From Pricia mediterranea (GTDB lineage Bacteria > Bacteroidota > Bacteroidia > Flavobacteriales > Flavobacteriaceae), in NCBI RefSeq assembly GCF_032248455.1, contig NZ_JAVTTP010000001.1:3284501-3348500 (forward strand): a stretch of 64,000 nt of DNA. Direction: 5' to 3'. Shown piece by piece: positions 55,857 through 60,182 of this stretch (within the stretch, counting starts at the first letter, position 1; every line of letters starts with the position of its first letter). The notes under the pieces are model-generated. The model had not been told where the DNA came from. It did no database searches and saw only the letters and a list, made by a program, of their open reading frames with translations. Both the position numbers and the translations under genes were made by a program.

Positions 55857-56465
55857 ATGAGTGATAAAGATATAACGGAAGAAACCGAAAGACAGCCGGA
55901 AGAAGGGTTTTTGGATGCCGATATGGATAAAGAAAACGAAATAGATGTCGAAGCTCTCGAAGGGGAAGGGGAGGCACGGCAGGAAGAAGCAGCTGGGTCG
56001 GCAGGAGAAGAATTGACCGAAGAAGAGCGCTTGCGAGAGGATCTGGCCAAGGAAAAGGACAAGTTCATGCGTCTGTTTGCGGAATTTGAAAATTATAAAC
56101 GGCGTACCTCGAAAGAGCGAATGGATATGTTCAAGACAGCAGGTCAGGAAATCATGCTTTCCCTCTTGCCAGTTCTTGACGATTTCGACCGCGCCTTAAA
56201 GGAGTTGGCCAAATCGGAAGACAAGGAAATGTTCGAAGGGGTTGAGCTGATTCGGGTAAAACTGCGGGAAACGCTCAGGTCAAAAGGACTCGAGGAAGTG
56301 AAAGTGGAACAGGGTGATTCGTTTGACGCCGAGGTACACGATGCTATTACACAGATACCGGCTCCCAACAAGAAACTCAAAGGAAGGATTGTAGATGTAG
56401 TCCAGCGTGGCTTTAAATTGGGCGATCGTATCATCCGGCATCCAAAAGTGGTGGTGGGAAAATAA
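55857..56465 (+). CDS. grpE: Nucleotide exchange factor GrpE
   Basis: A 202-residue cytoplasmic cochaperone that releases ADP from DnaK. A long acidic N-terminal region (about residues 1-60, rich in Glu) leads into the coiled coil with KEKDKFMRLFAEFENYKRR. The C-terminal beta domain contains the family signature FDAEVHDAITQIPAPNKKLKGRIVDVVQRGFKL in parts (EVHDAITQI and VQRGFKLGDRIIRHPKV). dnaJ follows after about 100 bases; dnaK is not in the window. Confidence 0.96.
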   Translation: MSDKDITEETERQPEEGFLDADMDKENEIDVEALEGEGEARQEEAAGSAGEELTEEERLREDLAKEKDKFMRLFAEFENYKRRTSKERMDMFKTAGQEIMLSLLPVLDDFDRALKELAKSEDKEMFEGVELIRVKLRETLRSKGLEEVKVEQGDSFDAEVHDAITQIPAPNKKLKGRIVDVVQRGFKLGDRIIRHPKVVVGK

Positions 56466-56567
56466 ACGCTTTTTCAACCTACCAATTTACTGTGGCCGGT
56501 TTGGGAAGATCAGAATCTTTTGAAGCACGGCGGCAGAGAAACGAACGGCAGCAACGAAACCATAAGA

Positions 56568-57689
56568 ATGAAGGAAGATTATTACGAGATACTCGGCATT
56601 ACCAAAAACGCCACCGCGGCGGAGATAAAAAAGGCCTATCGCAAAATGGCCTTAAAGCATCACCCGGATAAAAACCCCGGTGATACCAAGGCCGAAGAAC
56701 TATTTAAAAAGTCGGCGGAGGCCTACGAAGTATTGAGCAACCCCGATAAGAAGGCGCGCTACGATCAATTCGGACATGCCGCGTTCGAGGGCGGCGGATT
56801 TGGTGGCGGAGGTATGAACATGGACGATATTTTCAGCCAGTTCGGAGACATTTTTGGAAGTGCTTTCGGCGGTGGCGGAGGTAGTTTCAGTGGTTTCGGA
56901 GGCTTCGGTGGAGGACAGCGAAGGGTCAAAGGGAGCAACTTGAGGATACGTGTAAAGCTTTCTTTGAAAGAAATTGCCCAGGGCGTCGAGAAAAAAGTCA
57001 AGGTCCGAAGAAAAATGCAGGCCGAAGGGGTGACCTACACCACGTGTAGTACCTGCAACGGCCGCGGACAGGTGACCAAGGTGACGAATACGATTTTAGG
57101 AAGAATGCAGACGGCCACCGCTTGTAGTACCTGCGGTGGAAGCGGACAGGTCATCGATAAGAAACCTGCGGGCGCCGATGCCCAGGGCCTGGAGATTTCC
57201 GAGGAAACCGTGTCCATCAAAATACCCGCAGGCGTTGAGGAAGGCATGCAGCTGAAAGTGCCCGGAAAGGGTAACGATGCCCCTGGTAACGGGGTGCCCG
57301 GTGACCTTTTGGTAGCCATAGAAGCCGAGCCGCACCCTACCTTGAAACGAGAGGGCGATAACCTGCACTATGACCTGTATGTCAGTATTTCAGATGCCGT
57401 GCTGGGCACCTCGAAAGAAATCGATGCAGTTGACGGTAAGGTGCGCATTAAGCTCGAACCTGGCATTCAATCCGGTAAAATCCTGCGATTGCGCGGCAAG
57501 GGTATCTCCAGTATCAACGGATATGGCACCGGTGACCTGTTGGTGCACGTCAATGTATGGACCCCAAAAGAGCTGAACAAAGAGCAAAAAGATTTTTTTG
57601 AAAACATGAAAGGGAACGAGAACTTCGAACCCAAACCGGAGAAATCGGATAAATCGTTTTTTGAAAAAGTCAAGGATATGTTCTCTTGA
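56568..57689 (+). CDS. dnaJ: Chaperone DnaJ with a reduced zinc-finger domain
   Basis: A 373-residue DnaK cochaperone from the ATG at 56568. The J domain has HPD at residues 32-34. A Gly/Phe-rich linker (about 73-118) follows. The zinc region has only two CxxCxGxG motifs, Cys160/Cys163 (CSTCNGRG) and Cys186/Cys189 (CSTCGGSG), where classical DnaJ has four. The two remaining motifs correspond to zinc site II. The first motif is replaced by KVRRKMQAEGVTY and the fourth by KKPAGADAQG. The C-terminal client domains (IKIPAGVEEGMQLKVPGKGN) are normal. An in-frame ATG at 56520 would add 16 unrelated residues. Confidence 0.95.
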   Translation: MKEDYYEILGITKNATAAEIKKAYRKMALKHHPDKNPGDTKAEELFKKSAEAYEVLSNPDKKARYDQFGHAAFEGGGFGGGGMNMDDIFSQFGDIFGSAFGGGGGSFSGFGGFGGGQRRVKGSNLRIRVKLSLKEIAQGVEKKVKVRRKMQAEGVTYTTCSTCNGRGQVTKVTNTILGRMQTATACSTCGGSGQVIDKKPAGADAQGLEISEETVSIKIPAGVEEGMQLKVPGKGNDAPGNGVPGDLLVAIEAEPHPTLKREGDNLHYDLYVSISDAVLGTSKEIDAVDGKVRIKLEPGIQSGKILRLRGKGISSINGYGTGDLLVHVNVWTPKELNKEQKDFFENMKGNENFEPKPEKSDKSFFEKVKDMFS

Positions 57690-57700
57690 ATCAAGAAGTT

Positions 57701-57753
57701 GAACTCATCTTGGGTTGGTGTCTGTAGGTAGAAGAGGAATCCAAGACGAGTTC
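57701..57753. repeat. Inverted-repeat element, copy A
   Basis: GAACTCATCTTGG (57701-57713) pairs with CCAAGACGAGTTC (57741-57753) with one mismatch across 27 bases. It starts 11 bases after the dnaJ stop. It shares AAGACGAGTTCGTT (57743-57756) with the element at 27341-27391. Confidence 0.65.
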
Positions 57754-57799
57754 GTTAGGTAGAATTTTTAATTAAACTTTTATTTCTAAATAAAAACCG

Positions 57800-57807
57800 T
57801 ATATTTG
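57800..57807 (+). promoter_or_regulatory. -7 box of a possible small RNA
   Basis: TATATTTG matches TAnnTTTG. It is followed within 85 bases by an intrinsic terminator, with no coding frame between. Confidence 0.45.
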
Positions 57808-57812
57808 AAATA

Positions 57813-57892
57813 GATATTGGGAAACCAATATTAATTTTCTTTTTCATAGCAATTTTTTCCCATCCTTGAATCCGTTTAAGGGTGGGTTTTTG
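57813..57892 (+). ncRNA. Candidate small RNA between dnaJ and the ABC exporter genes
   Basis: A short non-coding segment that has its own TAnnTTTG box (57800-57807), a compact hairpin ATATTGG-GAAA-CCAATAT with a GAAA tetraloop (about 57814-57831) and a terminal hairpin with a T run (57859-57892). The next gene has its own promoter box after the terminator. The predicted RNA would be about 80 bases. I do not recognise a known family. It might also be an attenuator-like leader. Confidence 0.35.
57859..57892 (+). terminator. Intrinsic terminator before the ABC exporter genes
   Basis: CCCATCCTT pairs with AAGGGTGGG (one T-G wobble) around a ten-base loop, followed by five T. It closes the dnaJ/small RNA region. 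Confidence 0.7.
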
Positions 57893-57903
57893 TTTTAATG
57901 CCA

Positions 57904-57911
57904 TATCTTTG
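57904..57911 (+). promoter_or_regulatory. -7 box before the ABC exporter genes
   Basis: TATCTTTG matches TAnnTTTG and lies 14 bases before the ATG at 57926. Confidence 0.5.
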
Positions 57912-57925
57912 AAAAAATTGCTTGC

Positions 57926-58861
57926 ATGAACAACATTTTGGTCACGAAAGAGGTCACCAAACGTTATGGCGGTCATACGGCCCTTGATAAGGTTTCCCTT
58001 GAAATTCCCAAAAACAGTATCTACGGACTATTAGGCCCCAATGGGGCCGGAAAGACCACCCTTATACGAATTATCAATCAGATTACTTTTCCTGACCAAG
58101 GGAAGGTCTATTTTGACGGCCAACCTTTAAAACCCCGACACATTGCCCAAATCGGATATTTGCCCGAAGAAAGGGGACTCTACAAATCGATGAAGGTCGG
58201 GGAACAGGCCCTGTATTTGGCGCAGTTGAAAGGGCTGTCGAAGTCCGAAGCAAAAAAACGGTTGAAATTTTGGTTCGAACGTTTGGAGATAGGGGACTGG
58301 TGGAACAAGAAAATTCAGGAGCTTTCGAAAGGCATGGCCCAGAAAATCCAGTTTATAGTAACCGTGCTACACGAGCCCAAACTGCTCATTTTCGACGAAC
58401 CCTTTAGCGGTTTCGATCCCATCAATGCCAATATCATCAAAGACGAGATACTGCAGCTCAAGGAAAAGGGCACCTCGATTATATTCTCGACCCATAGAAT
58501 GGAATCCGTCGAAGAACTTTGCGAGCATATCGCCTTGATCCACCGCTCGGAAAAAATATTGGACGGAAAGCTATCCGCCATCAAGAAGGCATACAAGAAC
58601 AATATCTTCAACGTTGGTCTCGAGACCGATAATGGCGATATAATCTTAAAGGAACTGGCGGAAAATTTCGATATCAGCTCGTCAAAATACGATGTAGGGG
58701 AGCGGCAGCTCGATTTTAGGTTGCAACTTCCGAACGGGGACTCCGGTTCGGTGTTAAACTATCTTTCCTCGAAGGCGAACATCAACCATTTTGTAGAAAC
58801 GATTCCCTCGGCCAACGAAATATTTATTCGAACGGTACAAAGCAAAGGCATCCATGAATAA
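57926..58861 (+). CDS. ABC exporter ATP-binding protein (NatA-like)
   Basis: A 311-residue cytoplasmic ATPase. Walker A is GPNGAGKTT (37-45), the signature is ELSKGMAQKIQ and Walker B LLIFDEPFSGFDP, with the switch histidine in FSTHRM. After the ATPase core an extra C-terminal domain of about 90 residues (from about 215) is present, as in NatA/CcmA-like exporters. The next gene, which overlaps by eight bases, encodes the membrane partner. The pair probably exports Na+, drugs or lipids; the substrate is unknown. Confidence 0.93.
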   Translation: MNNILVTKEVTKRYGGHTALDKVSLEIPKNSIYGLLGPNGAGKTTLIRIINQITFPDQGKVYFDGQPLKPRHIAQIGYLPEERGLYKSMKVGEQALYLAQLKGLSKSEAKKRLKFWFERLEIGDWWNKKIQELSKGMAQKIQFIVTVLHEPKLLIFDEPFSGFDPINANIIKDEILQLKEKGTSIIFSTHRMESVEELCEHIALIHRSEKILDGKLSAIKKAYKNNIFNVGLETDNGDIILKELAENFDISSSKYDVGERQLDFRLQLPNGDSGSVLNYLSSKANINHFVETIPSANEIFIRTVQSKGIHE

Positions 58862-60182
58862 ACTGCCACTTATTATAAAGAGGGAGTATTTGGCCAAGGT
58901 GCGGAACAAATCATTCGTGATCATGACCTTTCTGAGTCCCATCTTAATGGTCGCCATGGTGGTATTGATCGCCTATTTGACCAAATTGAACGATTCCGAT
59001 AAGAGGGTCATCGGATTGCTGAACGAAAGCGACTATTTTGCCCATGAATTTTTAATGGCAGAGGATCTATCCTATGTGAATTTTAGCGACGTGTCTTTAC
59101 AAGCCGCCAAAGATTCTACGGCCAAGAACGATTATTACGCGCTGCTTTACATCCCTTCGGGAAAAAACCTGGAAGAAGTGGCGGAAAATTCGTTTCTGTA
59201 CACCAAAGATGCCCCGAACACCGCCGTACTCGATAAGCTCGATGCGATTTTTCAGCAAAGACTGAGACAGGAACGCTTGCAAGAGATAGGGGTTTCTACC
59301 GCGGAATTCGAAGCTATCGATAAGCCGTTCGAAATTAACACGGCTACTTTCGCCGGAGACCTTAACCTTAAGGGCATTACCGAGATTAAGGCCTTTATCG
59401 GCGGCGCCTTTGGTTATTTGATCATGATGTTCATCATCATCTACGGTGGGTTCGTGATGCGCAGCGTCATCGAGGAAAAGACCAGCCGTATCATCGAGGT
59501 CATCATCTCTTCGGTCAAACCCTTCGAGTTGATGTTGGGCAAGATTATCGGCACTTCCTTAGCGGGAATCACCCAGTTCGCGATCTGGATCGTATCTGGG
59601 GGGGTGCTATTGATCCTGGCCTTTGCCATCTTCGACATCGATCCCTCTGTCATGGGCAGCGGGGCCGCGGCAGGTACCAATCTGGCACCGCCGGTACCGA
59701 CCACCGATCAGACCTTACAGTTATACGCGCAGGAGCTTTTTAAGATTCCATGGGTTATGTTGATCGTATTTTTCTTGATCTATTTCATCTTGGGGTATTT
59801 GATCTACAGCTCGATTTACGCTGCTATCGGCGCGGCAGTTGATAACGAGACCGACACCCAGCAGTTTATCTTTCCTATTATTCTTCCTTTGATGTTGGCC
59901 ATATACGTGGGCTTCTTTTCGGTTTTCAGCAATCCACATGGGCCCATTGCCGTGGGATTTTCGCTGTTTCCGTTGACCTCGCCCATTGTGATGCTGATGC
60001 GGTTACCGGGCGGTATCGGTGAAGGCGGAGTGCCTATTTGGGAACTTGTGACCTCCATTCTCTTACTGGTCGTTACTTTTATCGGCATCGTATGGCTTGC
60101 GGCAAAAATCTACAGGGTGGGAATATTGATGTACGGAAAAAAGCCAACCTATAAAGAATTGTTCAGGTGGTTAAAATATTGA
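58854..60182 (+). CDS. ABC exporter permease (NatB-like, ABC-2 type)
   Basis: A 442-residue membrane protein. One N-terminal helix (FVIMTFLSPILMVAMVVLIAYL) is followed by a large extracytoplasmic domain of about 135 residues and five further helices, with the conserved segment EEKTSRIIEVIISSVKPFELM before the second set. This is the NatB architecture. Its start overlaps the ATPase gene (ATGAATAA) and its end overlaps the mscS start, so translation is coupled. Confidence 0.92.
   Translation: MNKLPLIIKREYLAKVRNKSFVIMTFLSPILMVAMVVLIAYLTKLNDSDKRVIGLLNESDYFAHEFLMAEDLSYVNFSDVSLQAAKDSTAKNDYYALLYIPSGKNLEEVAENSFLYTKDAPNTAVLDKLDAIFQQRLRQERLQEIGVSTAEFEAIDKPFEINTATFAGDLNLKGITEIKAFIGGAFGYLIMMFIIIYGGFVMRSVIEEKTSRIIEVIISSVKPFELMLGKIIGTSLAGITQFAIWIVSGGVLLILAFAIFDIDPSVMGSGAAAGTNLAPPVPTTDQTLQLYAQELFKIPWVMLIVFFLIYFILGYLIYSSIYAAIGAAVDNETDTQQFIFPIILPLMLAIYVGFFSVFSNPHGPIAVGFSLFPLTSPIVMLMRLPGGIGEGGVPIWELVTSILLLVVTFIGIVWLAAKIYRVGILMYGKKPTYKELFRWLKY

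Follow-up and report, generated by a model that had tools for sequence, protein, structure and literature searches.

The DNA analysed here (the window, 64,000 nucleotides) derives from a source genome of 4.57 Mb and contains, in this order, grpE, dnaJ, the element under study (sRNA1), an ABC exporter ATPase gene and a permease gene; the identities of dnaJ and of the exporter ATPase and permease were borne out by Pfam, and feature positions are collected in Table 1. A promoter box, a hairpin with a GAAA loop, a terminator and a second box had been proposed in the original prediction, and direct reading located each of them where it had been placed. The second box was also visible at three loci of the same genus (L002, L003 and L004), and the core between the two stem-loops (57833-57858), which the original prediction does not mention, was the most conserved feature of the element.

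Table 1. Features of the sRNA1 locus (window positions) and of sRNA2 in the same genome (contig positions).
Feature	Position	Strand	Remark
dnaJ	56520-57689	+	likely start ATG 56568; Pfam DnaJ, DnaJ_C, DnaJ_CXXCXGXG
Promoter -7 box TATATTTG (TAnnTTTG type)	57800-57807	+	read directly
sRNA1, predicted transcript, ~83 nt	57813-57895	+	start placed from the box
5' hairpin GATATTGG-GAAA-CCAATATT, 8 bp	57813-57832	+	letters variable, pairing conserved
Unpaired core AATTTTCTTTTTCATAGCAATTTTTT, predicted pairing region	57833-57858	+	
Terminator stem-loop CCCATCCTTGAA-TCCG-TTTAAGGGTGGG	57859-57886	+	
Terminator U tract TTTTTGTTTT	57887-57896	+	
Second box TATCTTTG, ahead of exporter gene	57904-57911	+	
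ABC exporter ATPase, ATG at 57926	57926-58861	+	Pfam ABC_tran
sRNA2, own genome	G000:C1, ~724838-724898	-	GCUAUGAAAAAG within stem-loop

Taken singly, the promoter box and the terminator were close to chance level. The box TATATTTG occurred 4 times in the 64-kb window (2.37 expected), and the interval 56400-59200 held 6 terminator-like sites (4.0 in shuffles) and 3 sigma-70-type promoter-like sites (3.0 in shuffles), so that neither promoter box nor terminator is significant on its own. Folding of the 5' hairpin stretch (57813-57845) gave a z value of -3.15 with 1/200 shuffles equally good, and the whole of 57813-57895 folded into two stem-loops with an unpaired core at a minimum free energy of -26.2 kcal/mol (z -4.88, equalled by 0/200 shuffles). 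The conservation of the element across relatives lifts it far beyond chance. The absence of a coding frame, which had also been claimed, held for the plus strand, where no ORF of at least 60 aa runs across the element, but on the minus strand a 73-aa ORF (57755-57976) overlaps it. The minus-strand peptide (ATGAAAAAG..) was rejected because its stops differ among relatives, as judged by eye, so that the frame is not kept, and because the G.U and A.C counts given below favour the plus strand.

For comparison with relatives, 57690-57925 was used as BLAST query against 60 related genomes with E values up to 1. Matches were obtained in 60/60 genomes, many of them by chance; the best 30 loci had E values from 6e-120 to 8e-6, and in all of these the 17-mer TTTTTCATAGCAATTTT was present without change (32 sites), with dnaJ motifs in each. 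The layout recurring in relatives consisted of a TAnnTTTG-like box, a 5' hairpin with changing letters, a constant unpaired core and a terminator hairpin. A scan with the core pattern gave at least 118 stretches in named genomes, and the matches listed include Arenibacter, Maribacter, Muricauda, Winogradskyella, Polaribacter, Tenacibaculum, Aquimarina, Myroides and several Flavobacterium species; across the family the pattern was found in 255/299 genomes, with 0 matches for the reversed control. A set of 113 sites was compiled from 80 core-pattern loci among the matches listed (named genomes) together with the best 30 BLAST loci. At 103/113 of these listed sites a TAnnTTTG box lay 24-48 nt 5' of the core (shuffles: mean 4.8, maximum 11).

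Conserved base pairing in relatives had been set beforehand as a check on the original prediction. Alignment A1 yielded no consensus structure, with two 5'-hairpin types out of register, and alignment A2 recovered the terminator helix alone; both were discarded. Alignment A3 (MAFFT, 14 sequences of one hairpin type) was analysed with a two-helix structure named from the fold of one of its rows, and 98.2% of cells were paired, a value reached by 0/500 shuffles. A structure model, R2, was built from A3; it matched the window at 57811-57897 (69.5 bits, E 5.9e-11) and its matches totalled 42, from 35 sources that include the window, with a weak opposite-strand match in L020 among the 42. In the R2 alignment 97.9% of 763 cells were paired, 18/20 pairs had double changes and double-change cells numbered 151 (32.9 in shuffles); since this alignment was fitted to the structure, A3 is the cleaner test of covariation. 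Both stems covaried, helix 1 (the 5' hairpin) with double changes in 9/9 pairs and 96.4% of cells paired, helix 2 (the terminator) with double changes in 9/11 pairs and 99.3% of cells paired. G.U combinations occupied 67 of the 763 cells and A.C combinations 5, and because the 67 G.U cells would be mismatches on the opposite strand, the RNA is assigned to the plus strand, so that the covarying pairs lie on the transcribed strand. At the sequence level the conserved box and the paired terminator helix together give the element a promoter and an intrinsic terminator of its own. The proposal of a small RNA is thus strongly supported by covariation, strand asymmetry, the conserved box and family-wide conservation, and judged from these features a conserved sRNA gene at 57813-57895 is as good as certain.

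When R2 was run across the phylum, with stricter filters under which weak matches are lost, 22/395 genomes matched, all of them in the family of the window, and 0/354 outside it. Within the family 19/41 genomes had no match, all 19 belonging to one genus (g146), of which 4/23 genomes matched; in the non-matching genomes of this genus sRNA1 is absent or altered. Multiple copies were observed in several places: two genomes (G258 and G477) had 7 and 8 copies, tandem copies numbered four in L139 and two in L140, and L028 and L029 had 2 copies each. The multiplied copies were identical in the core and different in the hairpins.

To look for candidate partners, the own genome was scanned for the core's reverse complement, allowing at most 3 mismatches. 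This gave 93 places compared with 100 for the reversed control, i.e. no excess. One of these matches falls in a second short unit, here called sRNA2, that is divergent from htpG (HSP90 by Pfam); most of the other own-genome candidates examined were not start codons of long ORFs and were dropped. Pfam identity of HtpG and of RecA (see below) was established at one locus each (RecA: L200). Among 30 htpG loci of relatives, an sRNA2 unit was found within 600 nt in 7 (by seed or neighbour motif). To avoid a choice based on the seed, sRNA2 was then sought by a second motif, TTTATTGGTTAGGTTG, which had 69 matches in 67/299 family genomes (reversed control 4). Of these stretches, 39/69 contained an HtpG motif, which in every case lay on the opposite strand; among those with a promoter-like TTAAAC box, a split that was picked after the sequences had been seen, the count was 34/48. 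Compared by eye, 66/67 genomes with the sRNA2 motif also carry the sRNA1 core, G683 having the motif without the core. Conversely, 189/255 sRNA1 genomes are without the exact sRNA2 motif, and taken with the 7/30 htpG loci this means that sRNA2 cannot be the sole partner.

Pairing of the 69 motif loci with the sRNA1 core was compared with that of shuffles. In 52/69 at most 5/100 shuffles were equally good, and for the TTAAAC-boxed loci 44/48 had 0 equally good shuffles; 17/69 paired no better than shuffles, 4 of these being boxed (L468, L491, L512 and L517). For the sRNA1-sRNA2 pair of the own genome, a duplex of 12 bp was calculated at -14.0 kcal/mol, against opening costs of 1.69 and 2.32 kcal/mol. 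The sRNA2 seed was enclosed by at least 5 pairs in 46/54 predicted folds, and at least 8/12 seed bases were unpaired in only 28/54 windows around sRNA2. GCTATG was conserved in 45/54 seed-bearing windows. Of 72 seed differences in the 54 windows, 20 retain pairing by G.U and 52 lose it; at seed positions 3-10 the figures were 8 retained and 10 lost, or 7 and 6 in the 45 boxed windows. As the core is nearly invariant, compensatory change across the sRNA1-sRNA2 pair cannot be shown. We consider base pairing between sRNA1 and sRNA2 likely.

A further partner, a leader divergent from recA, arose from a search for a start-like word in 149 genomes. It bears a promoter-like CGCAACCTTTTT..GCATCTA, and homology to one such leader was detected in 10/60 relatives (0 in the genus of the window). 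When paired with the core region, 14/15 recA-divergent leaders beat 200/200 shuffles, and for the leader L172 10/200 shuffles paired equally well; this test is less independent than the one for sRNA2, because the seed had served to find several of the leaders and was part of the homology query. Of the 15 leaders, 11 had a peptide with the ending CKADGG or CKSDGG. Peptides of ~30 aa ending NCKADGG or in close variants were seen at L200, L175, L179, L349-L353, L357 and L447, and a Pfam search with one recA-divergent peptide sequence gave no match. The core of sRNA1 is thus a conserved unpaired seed with complementarity to conserved RNAs encoded elsewhere.

Two readings draw on the gene neighbourhood. 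sRNA1 might mainly derive from the 3' part of the dnaJ mRNA by cleavage of the operon transcript, with the terminator belonging to dnaJ. Among the sites listed, 101/113 had dnaJ upstream in the same orientation, no more than 700 nt away, with the core 49-325 nt 3' of it, and the scan found no plus-strand terminator-like site between dnaJ and the element; read-through from dnaJ would tie sRNA1 to heat shock. Against this, sRNA1 has the box of its own conserved at 103/113 listed sites, and copies apart from dnaJ exist (12/81 sites among the matches listed). The 12 listed sites without dnaJ were from Tenacibaculum (6), Polaribacter (4), Flavicella (1) and a MAG contig (1), which has 131 bases upstream only. 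We therefore hold an origin mainly from dnaJ mRNA to be very unlikely; both routes, own promoter and dnaJ read-through, may be active. The link to heat shock put forward originally is supported at the level of gene order only, and the box itself is of the sigma-A type, as TAnnTTTG is assigned in Flavobacterium psychrophilum in the part of PMC9723704 available. The same part of that study places the grpE-dnaJ and htpG promoters of F. psychrophilum in one sigma-54-type cluster, so that the neighbours of sRNA1 and sRNA2 share one stress regulon in that species. The other reading from context makes the element a leader or attenuator belonging to the ABC exporter and draws on an exporter match downstream of the element at 74/89 evaluable dnaJ-linked sites among those listed. 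A separate box (TATCTTTG) lies between element and exporter, core and exporter match are between 90 and 742 nt apart among the sites listed, and the RNA persists at 15/89 evaluable listed sites (12 loci) with no exporter match; with such variable distance and exporter-less sites, no constant transcriptional link to the exporter was found. The attenuator offered as an option in the original prediction is thereby rendered extremely improbable.

Two further readings concern the action of the core. It could be an anti-start sequence repressing many mRNAs that start with UUGCUAUGAAAAA (MKK.., secreted and outer-membrane proteins). The word TTGCTATGAAAAA, not preceded by A, had 101 matches in 69/149 family genomes, compared with ~70 for the reversed word (both counted by eye) and with 30 matches in 27 of the 149 genomes for a permuted word, and 39/95 classified sites were at ORF starts (6/30 for the permuted control). 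However, TTGCTATGAAAAA is common beyond the family too (116/395 phylum genomes, family included), where R2 found no sRNA1 in any of the 354 genomes, and outside the family 8/20 classified sites were at starts, an equal share in a small sample. The equal share leaves a broad start-codon regulon unsupported, the longer word had no excess over its control in the own genome, as given above, and we regard this reading as unlikely. Alternatively, sRNA1 could act by protein binding, the U-rich core being the protein site and the pairing matches secondary. The core is rich in U, stays unpaired and hardly varies, and some genomes have several sRNA1 copies; protein-titrating RNAs occur in several copies. 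Since sRNA2 and the recA-divergent leaders complement the core far better than shuffles do, a result not expected from protein binding by itself, this explanation appears distinctly unlikely.

We therefore favour the reading that sRNA1 is a stand-alone, trans-acting sRNA that pairs through its core with sRNA2 and the recA-divergent leader, which we consider probable. Transcription of sRNA1 would start at a sigma-A-type promoter of its own and stop at the intrinsic terminator, and the core, 5'-CUUUUUCAUAGCAAUUUU-3', would pair in trans with RNAs bearing UUGCUAUGAAAAAG, some with GGGA ahead. One putative conserved partner would be sRNA2, the short unit with a terminator that many genomes carry in divergent orientation to htpG; the other would be the recA-divergent leader, mostly ahead of a 30-aa peptide gene. 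sRNA2 is predicted to be, most likely, a sponge or antagonist of sRNA1, and sRNA1 is predicted to block start regions, for example that of the recA-divergent leader. SroC with GcvB is an example of a sponge or antagonist RNA for a base-pairing sRNA, and the likeness lies in a second RNA that bears the complement of the first one's seed; unlike SroC and GcvB, sRNA1 and sRNA2 both have, by sequence, the look of separate units ending in a terminator, near two chaperone genes. Together they suggest an undescribed RNA control circuit. That this circuit is chaperone-linked, with sRNA1, sRNA2 and the recA leader with its 30-aa peptide coupling folding-stress and DNA-damage outputs through pairing at start regions in bacteria without Shine-Dalgarno sequences, is a tentative and rather doubtful extension. 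Shine-Dalgarno sequences are absent in F. psychrophilum according to the available part of PMC9723704, and sRNA1 offers a ready system in which to test regulation by base pairing at start codons lacking them.

With regard to known RNAs, Rfam 15 (4227 models) gave no match at the gathering cut-off in the window or in five loci that contain sRNA2 or sites related to it, and a permissive search of the window returned matches to unrelated families only, far below their cut-offs. Flavo-1, a computed RNA motif described as widespread in Flavobacteriaceae in the accessible part of PMC9723704, was thus, like the other Rfam 15 families, without a gathering-score match in the window. A literature search, over article listings and text passages of PMC9723704 and PMC5395568, returned no paper describing sRNA1. 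In the available parts of these two studies, few conserved sRNAs are described in flavobacteria; RNA candidates are listed in the supplements of both, those from F. columnare in that of PMC5395568. Rfp18 of Flavobacterium psychrophilum, whose deletion lowers two metalloprotease mRNAs, resembles sRNA1 as a conserved flavobacterial sRNA with a predicted base-pairing action (PMC9723704, available part); compared by description, the two would differ in that Rfp18 is reported with three stem-loops, pairing by the third, and with conservation in the genus, and that sRNA1 consists of two stems around an unpaired core and is conserved family-wide. Flavobacteria are a major bacterial group in the sea, in freshwater and in soil, and the R2 model allows detection of sRNA1 in new genomes.

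Several further observations were made at the partner and neighbouring sites. A small ORF beginning at the seed of sRNA2 was considered and rejected, as many homologs stop at or soon after MKK and no common frame was recognized by eye; TTTATTGGTTAGGTTG read in one frame gives YWLGC, with an immediate stop in several loci (L466-L495). Directly 3' of dnaJ lies an imperfect inverted repeat, AACTCATCTTGG..CCAAGACGAGTT (window 57702-57752), and the region containing it (57690-57780) folds with -23.3 kcal/mol (z -2.67). Just 5' of the sRNA2 promoter box an inverted repeat TTTGTTTAA..TTAAACA was noticed by eye at L141, L142 and L148, which by its sequence looks like a possible operator for a dimeric regulator. 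At L122 (G014:C12, ~62000) a second sRNA2-like unit, consisting of seed, TTTAGGTTGG and terminator, lies ~35 kb from the htpG-linked sRNA2 of the same genome. At L075 (~1501; G033) TTGCTATGAAAAAG stands directly 5' of a terminator-like hairpin, behind genes that we take, from the way they read, to encode a peroxiredoxin and a thioredoxin.
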